Below the pieces are notes generated by a model. It did not search any database, was not told the origin of the DNA, and saw only the letters and a program-made list of their open reading frames with translations. This document shows positions 1,566 through 39,956 of a stretch of 39,956 nt of DNA, piece after piece. Position 1 is the first letter of the stretch. Each line of letters starts with the position of its first letter. Position numbers and translations under genes: made by a program. The DNA comes from a virus: positions 1 to 39,956 of the IMG/VR virus record IMGVR_UViG_3300032828_000003. The stretch is one strand, 5' to 3'.

Positions 1566-1724
1566 TCCTTGGATCCGGCACGGACCGCAGCGAGGCCTCC
1601 CATGTCCTCCCGTTACCCGTAGCGCCCGCATCCGCCGGTCGCCGGATCCTCTAGCCCTGCCTCGGCAGGCAGCGTCCGCGTTCGACTCGCGGACAGGGCA
1701 CGAACGAAAAACAAGGAGAGAACG
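1566..1724. other. Intergenic stretch with inverted repeats
   Basis: No convincing gene. A 30-codon frame begins at ATG 1562 and ends at 1654, but it has no recognisable features. The stretch holds GGATCCGG (1570s) mirrored by CCGGATCC near 1645, and a tight hairpin, CCTGCCTCGGCAGG, near 1655-1668 with no following T-run. AAGGAGAG just before 1725 is the ribosome site of the next gene. A promoter is possible but I cannot point to clear boxes. Confidence 0.35.
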
Positions 1725-1886
1725 ATGGAGATCATGATCACGACCGACAGAGGACCGGCCGAGGCCAGGCGTCTCGCGAAGGAACGCTCGAAGGGAAAGC
1801 CGGTCTACGTCCGGTGCGTCTGGTTCTCGCGTTCGATCGAAGACGCGAGCGATTACCTGTTCTCGACGATCGCGAGGCACGTGTAA
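1725..1886 (+). CDS. Small basic hypothetical protein
   Basis: A 53-aa frame (MEIMITTDRGPAEARRLAKE...) with one of the best ribosome sites in the window, AAGGAGAG then 4 bases then ATG. Its TAA overlaps the ATG of the Sak4-like gene (TAATG), so the two are probably translationally coupled. The pattern of beta-strand, Arg/Lys-rich helix and VYVRCVWFSRS strand suggests a compact alpha/beta fold. Function unknown; position suggests an accessory of the recombination module. Confidence 0.6.
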   Translation: MEIMITTDRGPAEARRLAKERSKGKPVYVRCVWFSRSIEDASDYLFSTIARHV

Positions 1887-2893
1887 TGGCGTTCGTCAAG
1901 GCGACCAAGAAGCAGGCGAAGCTCCGGCTCGCGCTGATCGGGCTGGCGGGATCGGGCAAGACGTACTCGGCGCTGTCGATCGCCACCGCGCTCGTGCCGA
2001 ACGGCCGCGTCGCGGTGATCGACACCGAGCGCGGGTCGGCGTCGCTGTACTCGGACCGGTTCGCGTTCGACGTGCAGGAGCTCCAGCGGCACAGCCCGCA
2101 CGACTACGTCGAGGCGCTGGCCGATGCCGACGCCGACGGCTACGACGTGGTCGTGATCGACTCGCTGTCGCACGCCTGGATGGGCAAGGACGGCGCGCTC
2201 GAGCAGGTCGACAAGGCCGCCAAGCGGTCCGGCTCGGGCTCGACGTTCACGGCGTGGCGCGACGTGACCCCGATGCACAACCGGCTCGTCGACGCGATGC
2301 TGTCGTGCAGGGCGCACCTGATCGTCACGCTGCGCTCGAAGATGGAGTACGTGCTCGAGCCCGACGATCGCGGGAAGATGGCGCCGCGCAAGGTCGGGCT
2401 GGCGCCGGTGCAGCGCGAGGGCCTGGACTACGAGTTCACGATCGTCGGCGATCTAAACCTCGCCCACGACCTGATCGTGTCCAAGAGCCGCGCGGACGTC
2501 GTGCCGGTCGGCGACGTGATCAGCAAGCCCGGAGCGCAGCTCGCGCGGAAGCTCGCCGACTGGCTCGCGAGCGGCGAAGCGCCGATCCCGCAGCCCGAGA
2601 TCACTGTTGCTCCGGCGATCGTCGCCGTCGACAGGGAAGAGGGCAGCCTCACCACCGGCGTGGTCGTCGAGGCGGTCGAGAACGGCAAGGTCGTCGAGCG
2701 CTCGCTCCTGTCCGAGCTAGACGCGCGGTTCGCGGAGTACCTGGGCGGCATCATGGGCGCGAACGACATGGCCGAGCTCGATCGCGCGGCGACGTCTCCG
2801 GCCAAGCCCGAGAAGGGCACGCGCGAGCACGAGCTGGCCACGCGCGCGTACAAGACCAGGAAGGCCGAGATCCTGAGCGGAGCGGCGTCGTGA
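1886..2893 (+). CDS. sak4: Sak4-like RecA/Rad51-type annealing ATPase
   Basis: A 335-aa AAA_24-type phage ATPase. Walker A is GLAGSGKT (residues 19-26) and Walker B is VVVIDSLSH (88-96). A Thr/Arg-rich sensor segment (HLIVTLRSK) follows. Known members are single-strand annealing recombinases of the Rad51 superfamily that work with SSB. I set the start at ATG 1886 because the motif pattern begins right after it and it overlaps the previous stop; the upstream in-frame ATG 1814 lies inside the previous gene. Residues past ~240 form a low-similarity helical tail that may contact partners. The end overlaps the next GTG (GTGA). Confidence 0.85.
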   Translation: MAFVKATKKQAKLRLALIGLAGSGKTYSALSIATALVPNGRVAVIDTERGSASLYSDRFAFDVQELQRHSPHDYVEALADADADGYDVVVIDSLSHAWMGKDGALEQVDKAAKRSGSGSTFTAWRDVTPMHNRLVDAMLSCRAHLIVTLRSKMEYVLEPDDRGKMAPRKVGLAPVQREGLDYEFTIVGDLNLAHDLIVSKSRADVVPVGDVISKPGAQLARKLADWLASGEAPIPQPEITVAPAIVAVDREEGSLTTGVVVEAVENGKVVERSLLSELDARFAEYLGGIMGANDMAELDRAATSPAKPEKGTREHELATRAYKTRKAEILSGAAS

Positions 2894-3270
2894 TCCGCGC
2901 GTTCGGCACCGACGTGAAGGTCGCGGCGCGCTCGCGCGGCGTCGAGATCCACGGCACGTGCGAGTGCGGAAACGAGGCTAGGATCGGCGAGCGCGCGTGC
3001 GACCGGTGCCTGTGGCTCGACGGCAGGACGCCGTTGATCGGAAACGTGATCGAGATACTCCGCGAGCAGCGGTTCGCGTCCGTCGAGAACATTGCGGACG
3101 AGCTCGGCGTCAAGAAACGGAACGTGCTGCGCGCGCTGGCCGAGCTGCGCCGGCTCGGTCGTGTCGCGTCCGAGATCGATCACGTCGAGCGCCGGTACGG
3201 ATGGGGCCGCGAGTTCCACGACTGGAGCGACACGAAGGTCTGGCGGCTGTGCGATCGGAGGGCTCCGTGA
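2890..3270 (+). CDS. Zinc-ribbon plus winged-helix DNA-binding protein
   Basis: 126 aa from GTG 2890 (GTGA overlap). Residues ~23-40 hold a C-x-C...C-x2-C cluster (CECGNEARIGERACDRC), likely a zinc ribbon. Residues ~50-85 read as a helix-turn-helix (IEILREQRFASVENIADELG, then KKRNVLRALAELRRLGRV) with a wing. It is probably a DNA-binding accessory or regulator of the recombination/replication operon. No catalytic motif is visible. The gene is coupled to the nuclease behind it. Confidence 0.6.
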   Translation: MIRAFGTDVKVAARSRGVEIHGTCECGNEARIGERACDRCLWLDGRTPLIGNVIEILREQRFASVENIADELGVKKRNVLRALAELRRLGRVASEIDHVERRYGWGREFHDWSDTKVWRLCDRRAP

Positions 3271-4424
3271 TCACGTTCAGCATGCTTCCTCGCCTGCTCG
3301 AGTGCCCGGCCTCGGCCGCGCTCCCCAGGCATGAGACCTACTCCGCCGACGCCGCTGCCGGAAACGCGAACCACGACCGGCTCGCGCGGTTCGGCGACCT
3401 GCCCGACGAGCTGCGCGCGCTCCTGCCGCCTGACCCGATCAGCGAGGTCAAGCTCGCGTACGACGTGGCCACCCGCCGCGCGCGGATCATCGGCGCCGGC
3501 CGTGGCCGCGCGTACGGCCCGCTCGGCCCGTTCGAGATCGCCGGCTCGGTCGACGCGCTCGGGCTCGAGAAGGAGCGCGCGGTCGTGCTCGATTGGAAGA
3601 CCGGCGCGCTCGACGTCGACCCGGCCGCGCGCAACCACCAGCTGTGGGGCTACGCGCTCGCGGCCAGCCGGGCCTTCGGCCGCGACGAGGCGCTGGTCCG
3701 GATCGTGTACACGGCGCAGGGCAACCGTGTCGACGAGCACGCGATCGACGCGCTCGAGCTCGCGGCGTTCGCGGACCGGCTCGAGCGGCTGCACGGCCAG
3801 GTCGCGTTCGCGATCGCGCAGCGCCGCGACGGCATCGAGCCGGATACTGTGGAGGGACCGTGGTGCCGGTACTGCCCGGCCAAGCAGAGCTGCCCGAGCA
3901 AGACCGGGCTGCTCCGGATCATCGCGCACGGCGGCACGATCGGTCAGCTCGGCCGCGAGATGACGCCCGGCCAAGCGCGGATCGCGTACCAGCAGATCGT
4001 GGCGCTCGAGGGCATCGTCAAGGACGCCCGGAAGCGCGCCGAGCGGTACGTCGACGAGAACGGGCCGATCGACCTCGGCGACGGCCGCGCGTTCGGCCGC
4101 TACGAGCGCAAGGGCAACGAGAAGGTGGACGCTGCGATCGCGTCGCGCGCGATCCGCGAGGTCTGCGGCGAGCGCGCGGACGACGTGGCCGACGTCGCGC
4201 TCGAGATCTCGACCAGCAAGGCCGCGATCGAGCGCGCCGCGGCGTCGATCGGCGACAGGCAGCTCGCGAAGCGGATCCTGGGCCGTGCGCGCGAGCTCGG
4301 CGGGATCACGAGCGAGGTCAAGCGGCCGGTCGGCGAGTTCTCCGTCGGGCGGAATCCGGCCGTCATGCCGGAACCGTTCCCCGTCGAGGACATCGACTCG
4401 CTGATCGCGGAGCGCTCCGAGTGA
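3267..4424 (+). CDS. Cas4-like PD-(D/E)XK nuclease with Fe-S cysteines
   Basis: 385 aa from GTG 3267 (GTGA overlap). RecB/Cas4-type nuclease motifs appear in order: H36, D96 in GSVDAL, D109-x-K111 in VLDWKTG, and QLWGYA from Q125. Cys13 plus C200, C203 and C209 (CRYCPAKQSC) match the one-plus-three cysteine pattern that binds a 4Fe-4S cluster in Cas4 and AddB. The expected role is DNA end processing that feeds ssDNA to SSB and Sak4. The last ~150 residues are a helical extension. A ten-base gap separates it from copy A of the repeat family. Confidence 0.8.
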   Translation: MITFSMLPRLLECPASAALPRHETYSADAAAGNANHDRLARFGDLPDELRALLPPDPISEVKLAYDVATRRARIIGAGRGRAYGPLGPFEIAGSVDALGLEKERAVVLDWKTGALDVDPAARNHQLWGYALAASRAFGRDEALVRIVYTAQGNRVDEHAIDALELAAFADRLERLHGQVAFAIAQRRDGIEPDTVEGPWCRYCPAKQSCPSKTGLLRIIAHGGTIGQLGREMTPGQARIAYQQIVALEGIVKDARKRAERYVDENGPIDLGDGRAFGRYERKGNEKVDAAIASRAIREVCGERADDVADVALEISTSKAAIERAAASIGDRQLAKRILGRARELGGITSEVKRPVGEFSVGRNPAVMPEPFPVEDIDSLIAERSE

Positions 4425-4434
4425 GCGAGCACGA

Positions 4435-4701
4435 ATGATCGATCTTTTCTTTGATCTCGAACCGGCATCCCTGCTCGTGGCCTGGGACGCCGCCTGCGAG
4501 GGCGGCTGGTGGCCGCTGCCCGGCGTTTCGGTGTGGTCGTGGTCGCGGTCAGAGTCGCGGTCGAGGTTGAGGTCGAGGTCGTGGTCGCGGTCGCGGTCGC
4601 GGTCGGCATCGCGGTCGTGGTCGTGGTCGTGGTCGGGGTCGGCGTCGCGGTCGTGGTCGTGGTCGTGGTCGTGGTCGGGGTCGGGCTCGGTTAGCTCATG
4701 A
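4435..4701 (+). CDS. Copy A of head plus Ser-X tail family
   Basis: 88 aa. Head: MIDLFFDLEPASLLVAWD, then AACEGGWWPLPGVSV. Tail: near-perfect Ser-X dipeptides with X mainly Arg, Trp or Gly. Three further copies lie at 6298, 6896 and 7776. Codons for shared head residues differ mainly at third positions between copies (CTT/CTC, TTT/TTC, CCG/CCC), supporting this frame. The ribosome site is weak. The stop overlaps the helicase ATG (ATGA), so translation probably feeds the helicase. No known domain. Arg plus Trp in a low-complexity tail could bind nucleic acid or drive self-association (inference). Confidence 0.7.
   Translation: MIDLFFDLEPASLLVAWDAACEGGWWPLPGVSVWSWSRSESRSRLRSRSWSRSRSRSASRSWSWSWSGSASRSWSWSWSWSGSGSVSS
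4534..4690 (+). repeat. TCGNGG hexamer array A
   Basis: An imperfect tandem array of the hexamer TCGNGG where N is T, C, G or A, with a few departures (TTG, GAG, GCA). The unit is two codons, so slippage changes tail length but not frame. No combination of N creates a stop in any of the six frames, which explains the long shadow frames on both strands. Confidence 0.85.
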
Positions 4702-6311
4702 GCGATCCGAACGGTCACGGCAGGCTGGTCGATGCGCCGCTCGAGCGCGCGTTCGTCGCGGCCCTGCTCGAGCAACCGACCGCCATGCTGACGCTGCCCG
4801 ACGAGTTCGGGATCGACTGCCTGGGCGACGGCCAGGCGATCCTGACGTTCGCCGCGATGGCGAATTTGCGCGCCCAGGGCAAGGAGATCACGCGCGCGAG
4901 CGTGCGCGACGAGATCGTGCGGAACACCGGCAACCCGGACTCGGCGGCGTGGTTCGATCCGATCGCGCGGATCGTCCCGTCGGCCGAGGCGCCGGTGCTG
5001 GGCTGGGCCGCGTCGCTCGTGCGCATGGCCGCTCGCCGTCGAGCGCTGATCGAGGACCACGACGCGTCCGAGCGCGACGTCGACGACTTCGCTCTGCGCG
5101 ACGCCGAGGGGCCGCGAACGATCGACGACGAGATCGCGGCCGAGCCCGCCGTTCCGTCGTCGCCGCTCGTGCTCCTGCGCGACGCGGTGCCGCTGATCCG
5201 AGCGCGGGCCGCGCTGCCGTGGATCGAGATCGGGATCGACGACATCCACGCCCTCGCCAGGGGCCGGGCGGGCTCGTGCGTGTTCGTGGTCGGCTGGGAA
5301 GGATCGGGCAAGTCGTCGCTCGTGATCCAGGCCGGGCTCCACGCGGCGTCGCGCGGCCTCTGGTTCGTGTACGTGACCACCGAGCTAGACGCCGAGGAGG
5401 CCGCGGCGCGCGGGATCGGCATCGTGGCCAGGCGATCGTGGGAGGATGTGCTCCGCGGGCGGCTGGACGATGCCGAGATGCTCGCGTCCTGCCCGGAGGC
5501 GTTCGCGATCGTGGACAGTGACCGGGCGACCTTGGCCAACGCCGAGCGCGCGGTGGCCGAGATGCGCCGCCGGTTCCCGGACCGGCAGGGCGTGCTCGCG
5601 CTCGACTACCTGCAGGATCTCGCCATGAGCGACGGCGACATGCGGTCGCGCGTGGCGCTGGTGTCGCGCGGGTTTCGCCGGCTGGCCAAGCGGCTCGACG
5701 TGTTCGCGATCGCGGTGTCTCAGACCTCGCGCGGCACCAAGAAGCTCCTGCGCGACGGTGAGCTGGTGGGCGCGGACACCGCGTCGAGCGGCGCCGAGAG
5801 CAGCCAGATCGAGCGCGACGCGTACGTGACGCTGACGTTCGGCGCGCCCCAGCGCCGCGACGACGGGACGCTCGACGTCGAGCTCCACGTCGGCAAGGGC
5901 CGCATGACCGAGGGCGACCGCGTGTGGCCCCTGCGGTTCGACGGGCGCACCGGGCGCTTCGAGGTCCTGGGGGCGAGCCGAACCGGCGACGAGGTGCGCG
6001 AGGAGCGCGAGCGCAGGAAGGACGCGCTCATGGAAGAGTCCCGGAGCGAGGCGCTCGAGCGGATCGAGACGCACGTCGACGCGCTGCTCGCGTTCGCGAA
6101 CGAGCCCAAGAGCCGGAACGATATCTTCGATCCGGCTGCCGGCGGCGTGGGCGGTAACCGGCGCAGCGTGCTGTCCGTGGTCGATCGCATGGTACGGTCC
6201 GGCGCGATCGTGCGCGTCAAGGGCAAGCGGTTCGGCCAGCACTGGCCGCTGGCGCTCAGGACCCGGGCCGTGGAGCTCGGATGGGAGATCGTGCCCGATG
6301 CCGTCGAGTGA
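4698..6311 (+). CDS. dnaB: DnaB-like replicative helicase
   Basis: 537 aa. The N-terminal domain (~10-75) resembles the DnaB helical N-domain. The RecA-like motor has Walker A GWEGSGKSS (199-207), TTEL (227-230), Walker B VLALDYLQ (299-306) and the SQTSR element (341-345). An extra C-terminal region (~455-537) reads as a winged helix (RSVLSVVDRMVRSGAIVRVKGKRF) absent from ordinary DnaB, possibly for origin or partner binding. There is no primase domain and no primase gene nearby, so host priming is likely. Copies of the head/SX-tail family overlap both ends. Confidence 0.88.
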   Translation: MSDPNGHGRLVDAPLERAFVAALLEQPTAMLTLPDEFGIDCLGDGQAILTFAAMANLRAQGKEITRASVRDEIVRNTGNPDSAAWFDPIARIVPSAEAPVLGWAASLVRMAARRRALIEDHDASERDVDDFALRDAEGPRTIDDEIAAEPAVPSSPLVLLRDAVPLIRARAALPWIEIGIDDIHALARGRAGSCVFVVGWEGSGKSSLVIQAGLHAASRGLWFVYVTTELDAEEAAARGIGIVARRSWEDVLRGRLDDAEMLASCPEAFAIVDSDRATLANAERAVAEMRRRFPDRQGVLALDYLQDLAMSDGDMRSRVALVSRGFRRLAKRLDVFAIAVSQTSRGTKKLLRDGELVGADTASSGAESSQIERDAYVTLTFGAPQRRDDGTLDVELHVGKGRMTEGDRVWPLRFDGRTGRFEVLGASRTGDEVREERERRKDALMEESRSEALERIETHVDALLAFANEPKSRNDIFDPAAGGVGGNRRSVLSVVDRMVRSGAIVRVKGKRFGQHWPLALRTRAVELGWEIVPDAVE

Positions 6312-6600
6312 CCTTTCGCTCCTCTCCGACCCTGACCCAGCGGCCCTGCTCGTGGCCTGGGACGCCGCCTGCGAGGGCGGCTGGTGGCCGCTGCCCGACG
6401 TATCGCTGTGGTCGCGATCGCGATCGCGGGCGCGGGCGTGGGCGGGGGCCGGGTCGTGGTCGGGGTCGTGGTCGGGGTCGTGGTCAGGGTCGTGGTCAGG
6501 GTCGAGGTCAGGGTCGAGGTCGTGGTCGTGGTCAGGGTCGTGGTCGGGGTCGAGGTCGTGGTCGGGGTCGAGGTCTGGGTCGTGGTCACGGTCTGGGTAG
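6298..6600 (+). CDS. Copy B of head plus Ser-X tail family
   Basis: 100 aa. Starts at ATG 6298, overlapping the helicase end by 14 bases, with GGAG upstream. Head: SDPDPAALLVAWDAACEGGW, then WPLPDVSLW. Its 48-base core from CTGCTCGTG to TGGCCGCTG is identical to copies A and D. The tail begins with an Arg/Ala/Gly stretch, then becomes a (Ser-Trp/Gly/Arg) run. It stops at TAG 6598-6600, immediately before an AT-richer block; unlike A, C and D it does not overlap a following gene. Confidence 0.68.
   Translation: MPSSDLSLLSDPDPAALLVAWDAACEGGWWPLPDVSLWSRSRSRARAWAGAGSWSGSWSGSWSGSWSGSRSGSRSWSWSGSWSGSRSWSGSRSGSWSRSG
6410..6597 (+). repeat. TCGNGG hexamer array B
   Basis: Hexamer array with the same logic as array A but enriched in GGGTCG and TGGTCG units. 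Its first units are diverged (CGATCG, GCGCGG). Dense G-runs lie on the + strand, directly upstream of the palindrome-rich block. Confidence 0.82.
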
Positions 6601-6895
6601 CAGTACTGATTACATGTAATATGAGCATCAATACTATAAATACTGCTGTTGATACCATTGGTACCATACTGGTACCAACTGGTACCAACTTCGAGGTACT
6701 GACCGTACCGGTGGCGGTACCAACACCCCTTATTATAGGGGTTGGTACCGGTACCAGTACGTTGGAAAATACCACACTCGTCGATCGGCACCCCAAGCAT
6801 AGGTTGGTACTGCCATTTTGGCGTACTACATATACCTACTACTTTTACAGTCAGACTGTAATTCTACACTCATCAGGATTGGTGGTACCAAATCC
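6601..6895. promoter_or_regulatory. AT-richer palindrome-rich block, candidate replication origin or control region
   Basis: A ~295-base non-coding stretch. My hand count gives about 45% GC, against clearly higher GC on both sides. It holds seven GGTACC palindromes (6660, 6671, 6681, 6716, 6744, 6750, 6884), several within TGGTACCA. It also has a 12-base palindrome ATTACATGTAAT (6609-6620), a 17-base palindrome TTACAGTCAGACTGTAA (6845-6861) and a bulged hairpin (6716-6749). It sits between the helicase and resolvase genes and is flanked by G-rich arrays. Iteron-like repeats plus AT-richness suggest a replication origin; a multi-operator promoter is the alternative. Confidence 0.6.
6716..6749. 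promoter_or_regulatory. Hairpin inside the palindrome-rich block
   Basis: The left arm GGTACCAACACCCCT (6716-6730) pairs with AGGGGTTGGTACC (6737-6749) around a six-base TATTAT loop, with a two-base AC bulge in the left arm. It is not followed by a T-run, so a terminator is unlikely. A cruciform or protein-binding dyad fits better. Confidence 0.6.
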
Positions 6896-7203
<308 letters not shown>

Positions 7204-7207
<4 letters not shown>

Positions 7208-7779
7208 TTACAGTCGGATTGGATCCAGGCATCGCTACCATGGGCGTCGCCGTGCTCGACACGGCATCGCTCAGGATCGTCTTCCTGAGCTCGCTGCCGC
7301 TTCCTAAGCTTCGTGGGGGGCACAACAGCACCGGGCTCGCGAAACGCGCGCTGGCGCGGGCCCAGGAGCTCCTTGAGGTCGTTACGGAGCACGGTCCCGA
7401 TCGGCTCGCCCTGGAGTCGCTGTCGTGGCCGCGCGGCGCCACGCCGGTGGCGTGCCTGTCTCTGTGCTGGGGCGCCGCGTGCGGGATCGCGCGCGCGCGC
7501 GGCATCTCGGTGATCGAGCTGCCGCCCAAGCAGTGGCAGAAGGCGATCGGCATGGCGAGCGGCAGTGATCGCGAAACGCTTGAGCGCACCGTCTGTGGTG
7601 CCTGTTCGCCAGGAGCGCTGGCTCAGCTCGACGCCATGAAGCCGGCGCTGCGCGAGCACGCGATCGACGCGGCCGGCATCGCGCTCGCCGCTCGGTGGAT
7701 CGTGACCATACTAGAACCGCAAGCGTTCGGCGAGCGTGCTAGATCAGGGCGCAGGAAGCGAAAGGCGCGTCGACGATGA
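7204..7779 (+). CDS. ruvC: RuvC-like Holliday junction resolvase
   Basis: 191 aa from ATG 7204. It has an RNase H-fold RuvC signature: D7 in GLDPGIATMG, E71 in LALESLSW, and H152/D155 in REHAIDAAG. The fourth acid is His, as in Thermus thermophilus RuvC (H143/D146, same +3 spacing), so the site is probably intact. A basic tail (RSGRRKRKARRR) follows. The expected role is resolving branched DNA from recombination and replication before packaging. It overlaps copy C upstream and copy D downstream by ATGA. Confidence 0.85.
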
Positions 7780-8033
7780 ACGACTTGTTTGGCGACCCTG
7801 ACCCGCACGCGCTGCTCGTGGCCTGGGACGCCGCCTGCGAGGGCGGCTGGTGGCCGCTGTCGTGCGTGTCGTCGTGGCCGCTGTCGTGCGTGTCGTCGAG
7901 GTCATGGTCGCGGTCGCGGTCGTGGTCGCGGTCGTGGTCGCGGTCGCGGTCGGGATCGGAGTCGTGGTCGTGGTCAGGGTCGAGGTCGTGGTCGTGGTCG
8001 TGGTCGGGATCGCGGTCGAGGGTTACGACATGA
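7776..8033 (+). CDS. Copy D of head plus Ser-X tail family
   Basis: 85 aa from ATG 7776 (ATGA overlap with the resolvase stop; AGGAAG further upstream). Head: NDLFGDPDPHALLVAWDAAC, then EGGWWPLSCVSS. An internal 24-base tandem duplication repeats WPLSCVSS. The tail is Ser-Trp/Arg/Gly, ending RSRVTT. The stop overlaps the next gene ATG (ATGA). Its 48-base core is identical to copies A and B, suggesting recent copying or gene conversion. Confidence 0.7.
   Translation: MNDLFGDPDPHALLVAWDAACEGGWWPLSCVSSWPLSCVSSRSWSRSRSWSRSWSRSRSGSESWSWSGSRSWSWSWSGSRSRVTT
7851..7898 (+). repeat. 24-base tandem duplication in copy D
   Basis: The unit at 7851-7874 (TGGCCGCTGTCGTGCG followed by TGTCGTCG) is repeated exactly at 7875-7898. 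It spans the head/tail border and keeps the frame, showing recent in-frame growth of the gene. Confidence 0.85.
7899..8020 (+). repeat. TCGNGG hexamer array D
   Basis: The shortest of the four arrays, mainly TGG, CGG and AGG alternating with TCG, with single departures (TCA, GGA, GAG). Same frame and strand as the others. Confidence 0.8.
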
Positions 8034-8443
8034 AATCGTTCGATCCGATCGACCTTGTGCTGGCCGACTCGCTGTCGACGAGCGAGCGCGAGACGCTCGA
8101 CGTCCTGAACGAGGCGCGAGTCCGTTGCCGCCGATACCTGAGCGATCACAAGAACAAGCTGCTTCCGAGAGACGCTGTCGATCTGCTCGCGCTCTGCGAG
8201 CGGCGCGAGGCACGCCTTCGAGCCGACAGCCGCAAGGAGCGCCTGCTCCAGGCCCAGCTCGCGCTGGTCGCGCGCAAGCTCGGGCCGATCGACCAGGACT
8301 CGATCGACGACGAGATCCGCGGCCTGGTCGCTGGCGCGCTGGCGAGGATGACCGGCGAGCAGCTGCGCAAGCTCGCGCTCGTGCGCGACGTCGAGGCGCG
8401 CGCGCTCGACCTGGCCAAGAAAGACAGCGAGGGCGTGTCGTGA
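8030..8443 (+). CDS. Helical hypothetical protein, weak small-terminase candidate
   Basis: 137 aa from ATG 8030 (ATGA overlap with copy D). The N-terminus (MKSFDPIDLVL) shares DPIDLVL with the early genes at 49 and 39685. The rest is predicted helical with many Arg/Leu/Glu. It lies between the replication genes and the large terminase and no other small terminase is obvious, so it is a weak candidate by position only. No recognised domain. Confidence 0.6.
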   Translation: MKSFDPIDLVLADSLSTSERETLDVLNEARVRCRRYLSDHKNKLLPRDAVDLLALCERREARLRADSRKERLLQAQLALVARKLGPIDQDSIDDEIRGLVAGALARMTGEQLRKLALVRDVEARALDLAKKDSEGVS

Positions 8444-8604
8444 GCCGGCTCGATCCGCTCGATCGAGCGCGTGAGAAGAACGAGCGGCTGCGGATCGCGC
8501 GGATCGCCGCGCGGGACGCTCGTTCGCAGCTGCTGTTCCGACTAGCGAACGGCGACCATGTGCGCTACTACGGGCTCGGATGGCGGATCGAACGGTGGCT
8601 GTGA
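8440..8604 (+). CDS. Small basic hypothetical protein
   Basis: 54 aa from GTG 8440 (GTGA overlap). Arg-rich helix (REKNERLRIARIAARDARSQ), then a short strand segment ending in an aromatic YYGLGWRIERWL. May bind nucleic acid. The stop overlaps the GNAT gene start. Function unknown. Confidence 0.55.
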   Translation: MSRLDPLDRAREKNERLRIARIAARDARSQLLFRLANGDHVRYYGLGWRIERWL

Positions 8605-9029
8605 GCGCGATCGAGCCCAGCGTCCGGATCCGCGGCGCGCGCGGCCGCGATCAGGCGTTCGTGGCCGCGACCTGGGCGTTCTCGCTGCGCGACGCCGGAT
8701 GGCGGCGCAGCAAAGCCAACGAGATCGTGGACCGGCTGCTCGACGATCCTGCCTGCCGGCTCCTGTGCGCGTGCGATCCCGAGGAGCCGGACCGGCTGGT
8801 CGGCTGGATCGCGGCGGCCACGCTGCCCGCGGCCCGGCTGCTTCTGTACGCGTACGTTCGTGACAAGCACCGCAGGGGCGGAATCGGCTCGCTGCTCCTG
8901 CGATCGGCGTTCGCCGACGCCAGCAAGCCGCTGTACCATGTGCTGCGCGGCCCCGACGCCGACGCGCTGCTGACGAAGTACCAGAGCAAGGAGCTGCCCG
9001 TGGAAACGTTTCTCGGAGGCGTTCAGTGA
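8601..9029 (+). CDS. GNAT-family acetyltransferase
   Basis: 142 aa from GTG 8601, chosen because it gives the GTGA overlap typical here; ATG 8580 would add seven residues. The acetyl-CoA motif A is LYAYVRDKHRRGGIGSLLLR, with R-x-G-x-I-G at its core, preceded by a strand (LLLYAYV). GNAT proteins transfer acetyl groups from acetyl-CoA to amines. The target is unknown and could be a host protein or modified nucleotide. The end overlaps the next gene by GTGA. Confidence 0.7.
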   Translation: MSAIEPSVRIRGARGRDQAFVAATWAFSLRDAGWRRSKANEIVDRLLDDPACRLLCACDPEEPDRLVGWIAAATLPAARLLLYAYVRDKHRRGGIGSLLLRSAFADASKPLYHVLRGPDADALLTKYQSKELPVETFLGGVQ

Positions 9030-9346
9030 ACGTCGACGCGACCAGAACATGGACCATGCGGTGCGCTCGCATGCTCTCTCGCGAGCTACAGATCATCGCC
9101 ACCGAGCGAGCGGCTCACTCGATCGACGGTTCCATGACAGGAATGGCCATGGCGTCGATCCTGGCAGTCCCAGCAGGACCGTTACGTGATTTCGAGATCG
9201 CGAAATGGGCGGGCAGGATCATCGACGGGCCCGGAAAGATCGCGTTCGTTCTCATGCCAGATGCTTCCGATGAAGAATTGGATGCCTTCATCGCCCTCAA
9301 CGACAGGATCCTCGAGGAGCTAAATGCGCCACATCCCGCTCGCTGA
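9026..9346 (+). CDS. Hypothetical protein
   Basis: 106 aa from GTG 9026 (GTGA overlap). Contains a Met-rich segment (MTGMAMASILAVPAG) and an acidic helical end (DASDEELDAFIALNDRILEE). Codon third positions look less GC-biased than in its neighbours, which may hint at separate origin. No family recognised. It overlaps the start of groES by 23 bases. Confidence 0.55.
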   Translation: MNVDATRTWTMRCARMLSRELQIIATERAAHSIDGSMTGMAMASILAVPAGPLRDFEIAKWAGRIIDGPGKIAFVLMPDASDEELDAFIALNDRILEELNAPHPAR

Positions 9347-9791
9347 CCGCGTGATCGTCGAGGAGCTCGCCGAGCGCAAGAAGACCAAGGCCGGGATCTG
9401 GATCCCGGACAAATACACCAACCAGAAGAGCGTCGCGTTCGGCACCGTGCTCGAGGTCGGCGCCGGCCGCGTCAACGCCGGGGGCAAGGTCGTCCCGCTC
9501 GCGGTCAAGCGCGGCGACGTGGTCATGTTCCCGCGCCAGGCGCCGGCCGCGGTTCCGATCTTCGACGACGAGGGCGACGAGAAGATCGTGCTCCTGCTGC
9601 GCGAGGCCGACATCGTGTCGATCGTCGAGGGCATGCCGCGCGCCTCGCTGATCTACGACGTCGCCGGCGCGCCGCTGTCGATCGATCCGCAGTCGCTCGC
9701 GCGCGCGGACTCGACGTACAAGGCTGAGGAAGAGATCCGGATCGCCGAGCGCGAGGGCTGGTCGGATCCGGACGAGCATGTCGACGAGTAG
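9324..9791 (+). CDS. groES: Phage GroES-like co-chaperonin
   Basis: 155 aa. Residues ~4-97 are a clear Cpn10 fold: PLADRVIVEELAE, a mobile-loop-like KKTKAGIWIPD, VLEVGAGRVNAGGKVVPL, VKRGDVVMFP and the terminal KIVLLLREADIVSIVEG. Cpn10 heptamers cap GroEL; phage versions such as T4 gp31 adapt host GroEL to fold phage capsid protein. No groEL is present, so it must use the host chaperonin. A ~58-residue C-terminal extension is unusual and may be phage-specific. It is placed just before the terminase and capsid genes. Confidence 0.87.
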   Translation: MRHIPLADRVIVEELAERKKTKAGIWIPDKYTNQKSVAFGTVLEVGAGRVNAGGKVVPLAVKRGDVVMFPRQAPAAVPIFDDEGDEKIVLLLREADIVSIVEGMPRASLIYDVAGAPLSIDPQSLARADSTYKAEEEIRIAEREGWSDPDEHVDE

Positions 9792-10020
9792 GCGGCCACC
9801 GCGCACGATCCGTCCGGTCGAGATCGTGTTGAATCCGCCGGACGTCGTCGGAAAGACGCTGGCCCGGTGCGGCTGGTGCCTGGACCTGCCGGCGACGACG
9901 TTCGTGGCCGCGACGCCGACCTGCTCGACGTGCGCGGAGCTGACGCCGCACGGCCGGGTCTCGCGCTACCTTGTCACTGTGCACGCCAGGATCTACGGAC
10001 CGAAGAAGGAGCCGACGTGA
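9778..10020 (+). CDS. Small zinc-ribbon protein
   Basis: 80 aa from ATG 9778, overlapping groES by 14 bases. Two CxxC pairs (CGWC and CSTC) separated by ~16 residues fit a treble-clef or ribbon zinc site. Basic residues flank the site (SRRPPRTIRP, YGPKKEPT). Function unknown; perhaps nucleic-acid binding. Confidence 0.58.
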   Translation: MSTSRRPPRTIRPVEIVLNPPDVVGKTLARCGWCLDLPATTFVAATPTCSTCAELTPHGRVSRYLVTVHARIYGPKKEPT

Positions 10021-38680: not shown

Positions 38681-38691
38681 TCGGCGATGAT

Positions 38692-38702
38692 AGCATAATG
38701 CT
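38692..38702. promoter_or_regulatory. Operator-like palindrome 1
   Basis: AGCATAATGCT, a perfect 11-base palindrome around a central A, between the repressor start and the first rightward promoter. The same motif (AGCATGATGCT) recurs at 39116 at the same place relative to the second promoter, as expected for a repressor-binding site. Confidence 0.62.
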
Positions 38703-38740
38703 TCAAATTGTGAGCAACGAAAAATTTCTCGAAAACGATG

Positions 38741-38769
38741 TTGACATCCTGAGTAGGCGGTCGTAGATT
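38741..38769 (+). promoter_or_regulatory. Early rightward promoter P1
   Basis: TTGACA (38741-38746), 17-base spacer, TAGATT (38764-38769): a strong sigma70-type promoter. It fires toward the gene at 38791, whose leader is TTGAGAGGACCAAGACC. Confidence 0.85.
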
Positions 38770-38790
38770 GTTCTTGAGAGGACCAAGACC

Positions 38791-39102: not shown

Positions 39103-39115
39103 GCGTCGGCGCTGT

Positions 39116-39126
39116 AGCATGATGCT
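39116..39126. promoter_or_regulatory. Operator-like palindrome 2
   Basis: AGCATGATGCT, differing from operator 1 only in its central base. It lies 41 bases before the -35 box of P2; operator 1 lies 38 bases before that of P1. Confidence 0.6.
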
Positions 39127-39167
39127 TCAGGTTGTGAGCAACCAAAAAAAAACATCCGAGAAGGATG

Positions 39168-39196
39168 TTGACATTTTGAGTAGGTGGTCGTAGATT
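39168..39196 (+). promoter_or_regulatory. Early rightward promoter P2
   Basis: TTGACA (39168-39173), 17-base spacer, TAGATT (39191-39196), identical boxes to P1. It drives the gene at 39219 and probably reads through the circle junction into the early genes at the left end. Confidence 0.85.
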
Positions 39197-39218
39197 GTTT
39201 CTTGAGAGGACCAAGACC

Positions 39219-39509: not shown

Positions 39510-39683
39510 ATGACCAAGACCAAGAACGAAATCAGGACCACGATCGCGCAACCGCCCAAGTACGTCGCGTGCTTGCACTGCTCTGATGATTACAAGATCA
39601 CATGCGATCATGAACCGGCCGCTGGAATGACTCGGGCGCTGTCGGCCTCATACCGAGCGTGGCTGGCGCTGGGAGGCAAGTAG
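39510..39683 (+). CDS. Small zinc-ribbon early protein
   Basis: 57 aa from ATG 39510 after GAGAGGACAAGGACAAGGACC, a third variant of the early leader. CLHCSDDYKITCDH is a compact C-x2-C...C-x-H cluster. Its 3' end is repeated at bases 1-47. The next gene starts one base after its stop. Confidence 0.58.
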   Translation: MTKTKNEIRTTIAQPPKYVACLHCSDDYKITCDHEPAAGMTRALSASYRAWLALGGK

Positions 39684-39684
39684 C

Positions 39685-39894
39685 ATGCCAGCGATCGACC
39701 CGATCGATCTGGTGCTGCGGACCAGGTGCCCGGCGAAGCACGCCGCCGATCTCGTCCGCTGCCGATACCCGCTCGCCGCCGCCGTCATGGACAGCCAGCG
39801 CGCGCCGTCGAGCAGCCGCTACGCGCGGTTCGTGCGCTCGCTCGACGGCGCGCGCGTCGTGCGCGGGATCCCGAGCTGCGGGGTGGCGCTGTGA
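39685..39894 (+). CDS. Small early hypothetical protein (intact form)
   Basis: 69 aa from ATG 39685 with GGGAGG upstream. Begins MPAIDPIDLVLRTRCPAKHA; DPIDLVL recurs in the 137-aa gene at 8030. Arg-rich later part (SSRYARFVRSLDGARVVRGI). Its stop overlaps the GTG of the next gene (GTGA). The left-end copy lacks codons from this gene through the 86-base deletion. Confidence 0.6.
   Translation: MPAIDPIDLVLRTRCPAKHAADLVRCRYPLAAAVMDSQRAPSSSRYARFVRSLDGARVVRGIPSCGVAL
39755..39840. other. 86-base segment missing from the left-end copy
   Basis: Flanked by CTCG at 39751-39754 and 39837-39840, so its loss can be explained by recombination between 4-base repeats. It removes 28 and two-thirds codons from the 69-aa gene and fuses the remainder to the next frame. 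Confidence 0.85.
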
Positions 39895-39956
39895 TCCCGG
39901 TCGCCGGCAAGGCACCGGTCGACAAGCGACCCAGCCTGCACTGGCTGGACATGGAA
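39891..39956 (+). CDS. Start of the 113-aa hypothetical gene (partial)
   Basis: GTG 39891 begins VIPVAGKAPVDKRPSLHWLD and runs off the end of the window. The continuation is at 169-510. The GTGA overlap with the 69-aa gene supports this start. Confidence 0.6.
   Translation, partial: MIPVAGKAPVDKRPSLHWLDME

Follow-up and report, generated by a model that had tools for sequence, protein, structure and literature searches.

What might a dense cluster of GGTACC palindromes do inside the replication operon of a phage? The question arises from a virus record in IMG/VR, here analysed as a single stretch of 39,956 bases (the window), in which a sequence-only reading had proposed that the block at positions 6601-6895 is an origin of replication or a cluster of operators. 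The two ends of the record (1-234 and 39637-39956) agree in every base (100%) across 118 and 120 bases on either side of an indel of approximately 80 bases, and the phage genome is thus probably complete and circularly permuted, with a length of about 39.6 kb. The indel itself probably marks a gene that is present as two variants, either in the population or in the assembly. A search for the host in GTDB genomes, with the terminase and the capsid protein as queries, gave no match.

Gene content of the replication operon

The plus strand carries a coupled operon in which most gene junctions overlap by ATGA or by a few bases. Open reading frames were called in this analysis with a simple script and may be imperfect. 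The operon includes genes for a P-loop ATPase (1885-2893; no match in Pfam, resembling Sak4 by eye), a helix-turn-helix (HTH) protein (2890-3270), a PD-(D/E)XK exonuclease (3267-4424), a DnaB-type helicase with a C-terminal extension (4698-6311; DnaB_C, 2e-13; PHROG 19), a RuvC-like resolvase (7204-7779) and a further protein (8030-8443). The HTH protein, a possible partner, weakly matches PHROG families annotated as replication initiation proteins, and a fold search with this protein returned only generic helix-turn-helix matches (E >0.5). The predicted fold of the helicase C-terminus was too poor to be used. No initiator gene was recognised in the operon, nor any gene resembling lambda O, and searches with DnaB, RuvC, the SR head described below or the exact iteron DNA recovered no close relatives of the replication module.

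Four small genes on the same strand, here called SR1 to SR4, are interspersed among these genes: SR1 (4435-4701) between the exonuclease and the helicase, SR2 (6298-6600) between the helicase and the block, SR3 (6896-7207), a second copy, as the first gene past the block, and SR4 (7776-8033) between RuvC and the gene at 8030-8443. Their products share a conserved head, DPxALLVAWDxACEGGWWPL, followed by a low-complexity (S[R/W/G])n tail, which is encoded by arrays of the hexamer TCGNGG with N as the sole variable base. Each of them adjoins a gene of the replication operon, mostly via an ATGA overlap, and neither viral contigs nor annotated phages yielded relatives. The tail can be likened to sticker-and-spacer sequences that form condensates. 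One distant relative of the phage (L016, approximately 1590-1910, minus strand) encodes a small protein with a cysteine-rich head and a hexamer-coded GY/GF/GT/GS tail, which suggests that small proteins with repeat tails may be widespread among these phages.

The block corresponds exactly to the gap from the SR2 stop codon to the SR3 start codon and is the sole sizeable non-coding gap within the coupled operon. It had been described as lying between helicase and resolvase genes, which is right for the wider surroundings, but one small repeat-protein gene intervenes on each side. The cluster starts 348 bases past the helicase stop codon, with the 300 bases of SR2 in between. Since SR genes are present four times in the operon, SR2 may be a later insertion at this place.

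Two other features of the window were noted. A duplicated AT-rich, promoter-like region at 38690-38790 and 39110-39215 contains TTGACA-17-TAGATT and a motif shared by its copies, TGCTTCA...TTGTGAGCA; XRE repressor genes on the minus strand adjoin it, and it is probably the early or immunity control region. A GroES-like co-chaperonin gene (9324-9791; Cpn10, 7e-18) is kept upstream of the terminase in many relatives.

Composition, stability and structure of the block

All seven reported GGTACC sites were recovered (6660, 6671, 6681, 6716, 6744, 6750 and 6884), in a block with a GC content of 44.6% (296 bases tested) as compared to about 69% for the genome. The whole window contains 12 such sites, of which five are located outside the block. 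The expectation by chance had been put at well below one, which holds for the block, where shuffled sequences contained 0.41 sites on average and four at most, with seven copies reached in none of 10,000 shuffles, but not for the whole window, where 3.3 sites are expected. Nor did any 6-mer at all reach seven copies in 5,000 shuffles of the block. The deeper signal under the repeats is the GTAC core, which occurs 13 times in the block and at most six times in any other 295-base window, while each of the other 15 four-base palindromes is present in 0-3 copies in the block. The spacing is iteron-like for the first three sites only (6660-6686), which are 11 and 10 bases apart; the remaining sites are not regularly spaced.

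Calculations of nearest-neighbour stability placed the two weakest 50-, 100- and 150-bp duplex stretches of the entire genome in the block or with their start a few bases ahead of it. The left AT-rich segment (6601-6657), a candidate unwinding element, is the least stable duplex in the genome at 50-150 bp and contains the palindromes CAGTACTG (6601-6608) and TTACATGTAA (6610-6619). The right AT-rich segment (6815-6880) is the second least stable stretch and contains the palindrome TTACAGTC-A-GACTGTAA (6845-6861). Six of the GGTACC sites lie to the left of the right segment and one to its right (6884-6889), shortly before the start codon of SR3, with partial sites at 6806 and 6823. Positions 6658-6678 form the inverted repeat TTGGTACCA-TAC-TGGTACCAA, the 9-base arms of which match perfectly. 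Sites four to six are part of a bulged hairpin (6704-6761; arms 6704-6727 and 6738-6761), the tip of which reads GGTACCAACACCCC-TTATTATA-GGGGTTGGTACC. The hairpin and the two longer palindromes of the sequence-only reading (6610-6619 and 6845-6861) were thus confirmed. Folding as DNA gave z = -6.6, and both strands fold strongly (z = -5.1 for the plus strand and -7.5 for the minus strand).

Searches for other landmarks were negative. No DnaA boxes (TTWTNCACA, up to one mismatch) were found in 6501-6950, and the block does not in this respect resemble a DnaA-dependent origin. No IHF sites were found in the block region, no match to the block was obtained in Rfam, and its DNA showed only chance-level similarity to phages and plasmids. 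GC skew, which had been proposed as a check, did not mark the block: the cumulative curve changes direction near 33.2 and 12.5 kb.

GGTACC clusters in other viral contigs

We scanned IMG/VR for three GGTACC sites separated by gaps of 3-6 bases; GGTACC was the one palindrome scanned. At least 120 loci were identified and merged by similarity into 75 groups. Among the matches listed, 42 of the 75 groups had spacings that were multiples of 3 and were set apart as probable in-frame protein repeats, leaving 33 independent clusters that cannot be such repeats. We compared the open reading frames of at least 120 residues that cover or flank these 33 clusters to the remaining ones of the same loci. 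Replication proteins were matched by 12 of the 69 adjacent frames, as compared to 1 of the 239 others (Fisher p 8e-8, among the matches listed), with a query set that was itself largely taken from the cluster neighbours, and a Pfam check was therefore made independently. This identified Prim-Pol (6), DUF5906 (4), AAA_25 (3), PriCT_1 (3) and DUF1376 (2) domains among the 69 neighbours, each of which was seen fewer than two times among 110 other frames, again among the matches listed. The link between GGTACC clusters and replication genes is an association and does not by itself assign a function.

The typical arrangement among the matches listed is a first site 0-25 bases past the stop codon of a primase-helicase gene, followed by steps of 10-11 bases. 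Examples are L036 (+2, +12 and +23 from the stop codon), L093 (+1, +11, +22), L088 (0, +11, +22), L063 (+1, +11, +21) and L055 (+16, +26, +36), and the 11- and 10-base spacing of the first three sites in the block fits this pattern. In L121 and L133 the cluster is located inside a DUF1376 gene, like the iterons of lambda inside O, while in L097 and L102 it is on the 5' side. Very dense arrays included 18 GGTACC sites in 320 bases at about position 6700 of L046, in a long open frame of a high-GC contig with no neighbour identified, and 10 sites in 320 bases at about position 798 of L130, beside a Prim-Pol and AAA_25 primase-helicase. Clusters with a 9-base spacing in AT-rich non-coding DNA (L052 and L109, also L128 and L144) sit just upstream of a gene that by eye resembles a small terminase and could be packaging sites.

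Iterons behind related primase-helicases in annotated phages

Several annotated phages encode a primase-helicase akin to the one of L036, and in four of them comparable repeats built from a different word lie directly 3' of the gene, with copies counted over both strands: 11 copies of GGTACA in Idiomarinaceae phage 1N2-2, 12 of GGTTCA in Alteromonas phage XX1924, six of GGGACA in Salicola phage CGphi29 and eight of GGGACA in ct3Oc712. Three of these four phages also carry a hairpin that is bounded by repeats or similar sequences and has a C-rich and a G-rich arm around an AT-containing loop; this build was not seen in XX1924. It reads GGTACACACACC-TATAT-AGGTGTGTACC in 1N2-2 and GGACACACACC-TATA-GGGTGTGTCC in ct3Oc712, and the cluster of contig L154 has TGGTACCTCCTCCCC-TATA-GGGGAGGTACCA. 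The tip of the bulged hairpin in the block is likewise a repeat-bounded hairpin of the C-rich/AT-loop/G-rich kind. The arrangement is not universal, as no iteron cluster was present in Manatee ct76p945, ctfjg026 and Caulobacter phage GB2A, although these also matched the primase-helicase queries.

The clusters beside AAA_25 proteins (L036, L154, L130 and L038; 1N2-2, CGphi29 and ct3Oc712) thus resemble the block in the same or a variant word, GG[TG][AT]C[AC], in the 10-11-base spacing of many of them and in the hairpin. The proteins differ: those beside the clusters have a primase and a C-terminal domain with no detectable kinship to the window helicase. No homology was detected between the helicase C-terminus and the cluster-bearing AAA_25 primase-helicases, with an hhalign probability of 0.15%.

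The corresponding position in relatives of the phage

A terminase search recovered about 25 distant relatives in IMG/VR. Most of those that reach far enough carry an initiator gene upstream of the terminase (Phg_2220_C, DnaT-like or other matches to "replication initiation"). For L006, L016 and L019, duplex stability in the region upstream of the terminase is lowest inside this gene, and L019 has repeats of GTTACG there. None of the initiators tested matched the window. In L010, a relative by capsid and terminase, a P4-family primase-helicase gene is directly followed by an AT-rich gap (3275-3450) with the palindrome GTTCTTA-N4-TAAGAAC, itself another candidate origin with a different palindrome. 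The initiator genes suggest that this position is the origin slot in the relatives, which in the window would be filled by the helicase and the block.

Comparison with known origins and alternative explanations

SaPI/PICI elements have their origin directly behind the 3' end of rep, where two iteron sets enclose an AT-rich tract (PMC6092414), and the SCCmec protein Cch2 uses its C-terminal domain to bind iterons located a short way past its own gene (PMC7581432). The block resembles both in its short putative iterons and AT-rich DNA in the region 3' of a gene for a replicative helicase or initiator, but the window helicase is of the DnaB type (SF4; DnaB_C/PHROG 19) rather than SF3/D5, a 300-base gene intervenes, and each putative iteron is a complete palindrome, GGTACC, in the company of a hairpin. 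P4 alpha is a helicase with a winged-helix domain that binds origin repeats, and plasmid pRN1 has an essential stem-loop directly downstream of its replication protein gene (both as described in PMC4234260), although pRN1 lacks iterons and both proteins are primase-helicases, whereas the window protein is a helicase only. Lambda has 19-base inverted-repeat iterons within its initiator gene O (PMC7466680); palindromic iterons (putative ones in the window) and an AT-rich region in a replication operon are common to both phages, but the window sites are short and intergenic, and no O-like gene accompanies them.

Because largely unrelated viruses carry similar clusters right behind helicase genes, the block is probably an origin. 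We estimate a probability of roughly 0.7 that it is the lytic origin of the phage, of the helicase-adjacent iteron type represented by SaPI/PICI, Cch2 and P4. The initiator genes in the same slot of other relatives and the palindromic AT-rich gap of L010 count in favour of this assignment, while the GC skew, the intervening SR2 gene, the helicase C-terminus, with no detectable kinship to those of the cluster-bearing proteins, and the three annotated phages without a cluster count against it. Under the origin assignment, the GGTACC palindromes would serve as iterons for an initiator encoded by the phage. This role would most likely fall to the DnaB-type helicase, acting via its C-terminal extension, or to a partner, for instance the HTH protein at 2890-3270. 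Binding around the iteron-bounded hairpin would melt one of the two flanking AT-rich segments, onto which the hexameric helicase could be loaded, and the host primase and polymerase would then begin copying, in a scheme modelled on SaPI Rep, Cch2, P4 alpha and lambda O. What we observed is the cluster with its structure and low duplex stability, its position in the replication operon, and the way such clusters recur next to replication genes in other phages; whatever goes beyond a cluster beside replication genes is our inference.

The alternative offered by the sequence-only reading, a cluster of operators, would make the block an AT-rich promoter into SR3 and RuvC, with a phage regulator bound to the GGTACC sites, the last of which overlaps the ribosome-binding region of SR3. 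This last site lies 6 bases before the start codon, several HTH proteins are encoded by the phage, the promoter-like gaps at 38681-38790 and 39103-39194 are likewise AT-rich, and a weak -35/-10 pair is legible by eye at 6609-6637. A consensus scan recovered no sigma-70 site, however, and GGTACC is missing from the other promoter-like gaps, so that as an operator it would serve one locus only; the clusters 3' of primase-helicase genes elsewhere would also be left unexplained. The proposal of an origin or operators thus held up, and the comparison with other viruses (the replication matches among neighbours listed above and the equivalent iterons in annotated phages) favours the origin, with a regulated promoter being unlikely.

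We consider it highly improbable that the hairpins work as RNA, as a structured leader or attenuator of SR3 and RuvC. Both strands do fold strongly, and RNA-based prophage origins provide a precedent (PMC7157519), but perfect DNA palindromes fold on either strand anyway, Rfam gave no match and the sole terminator-like site of 4000-10000 lies elsewhere; moreover, the symmetric GGTACC recurs in both orientations, as sites for proteins do. A packaging (pac) or other recombination site is the least probable explanation. The overlapping window ends are consistent with circular permutation, and some in-frame-spaced clusters (L052/L109, L079/L141) are by eye near small-terminase-like genes, but with spacings in multiples of 3 they represent a different class, the block is within the replication operon 3.5 kb upstream of the large terminase gene, and there was no integrase among the genes searched.

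Implications for phage replication origins

Our searches of the open-access literature turned up no mention of GGTACC iterons at a phage origin. We tentatively suggest that GGTACC and its variants GG[TG][AT]C[AC] could constitute one widespread family of phage origin iterons, located beside unrelated replication proteins (DnaB-type helicases, AAA_25 primase-helicases, prim-pol/D5, DUF927-Cch and DUF1376 proteins) and often accompanied by the C-rich/AT-loop/G-rich hairpin. Such a family would raise the question of why different helicase families share one palindrome. For most phages, and particularly for those represented by metagenomes alone, the lytic origin has to our knowledge not been mapped. 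If the family is real, it would supply a sequence signature for recognising lytic origins directly in a phage genome: with the word and the hairpin predictably placed beside the replicative helicase gene, they would be callable from sequence and testable in cultured relatives such as 1N2-2 and XX1924.
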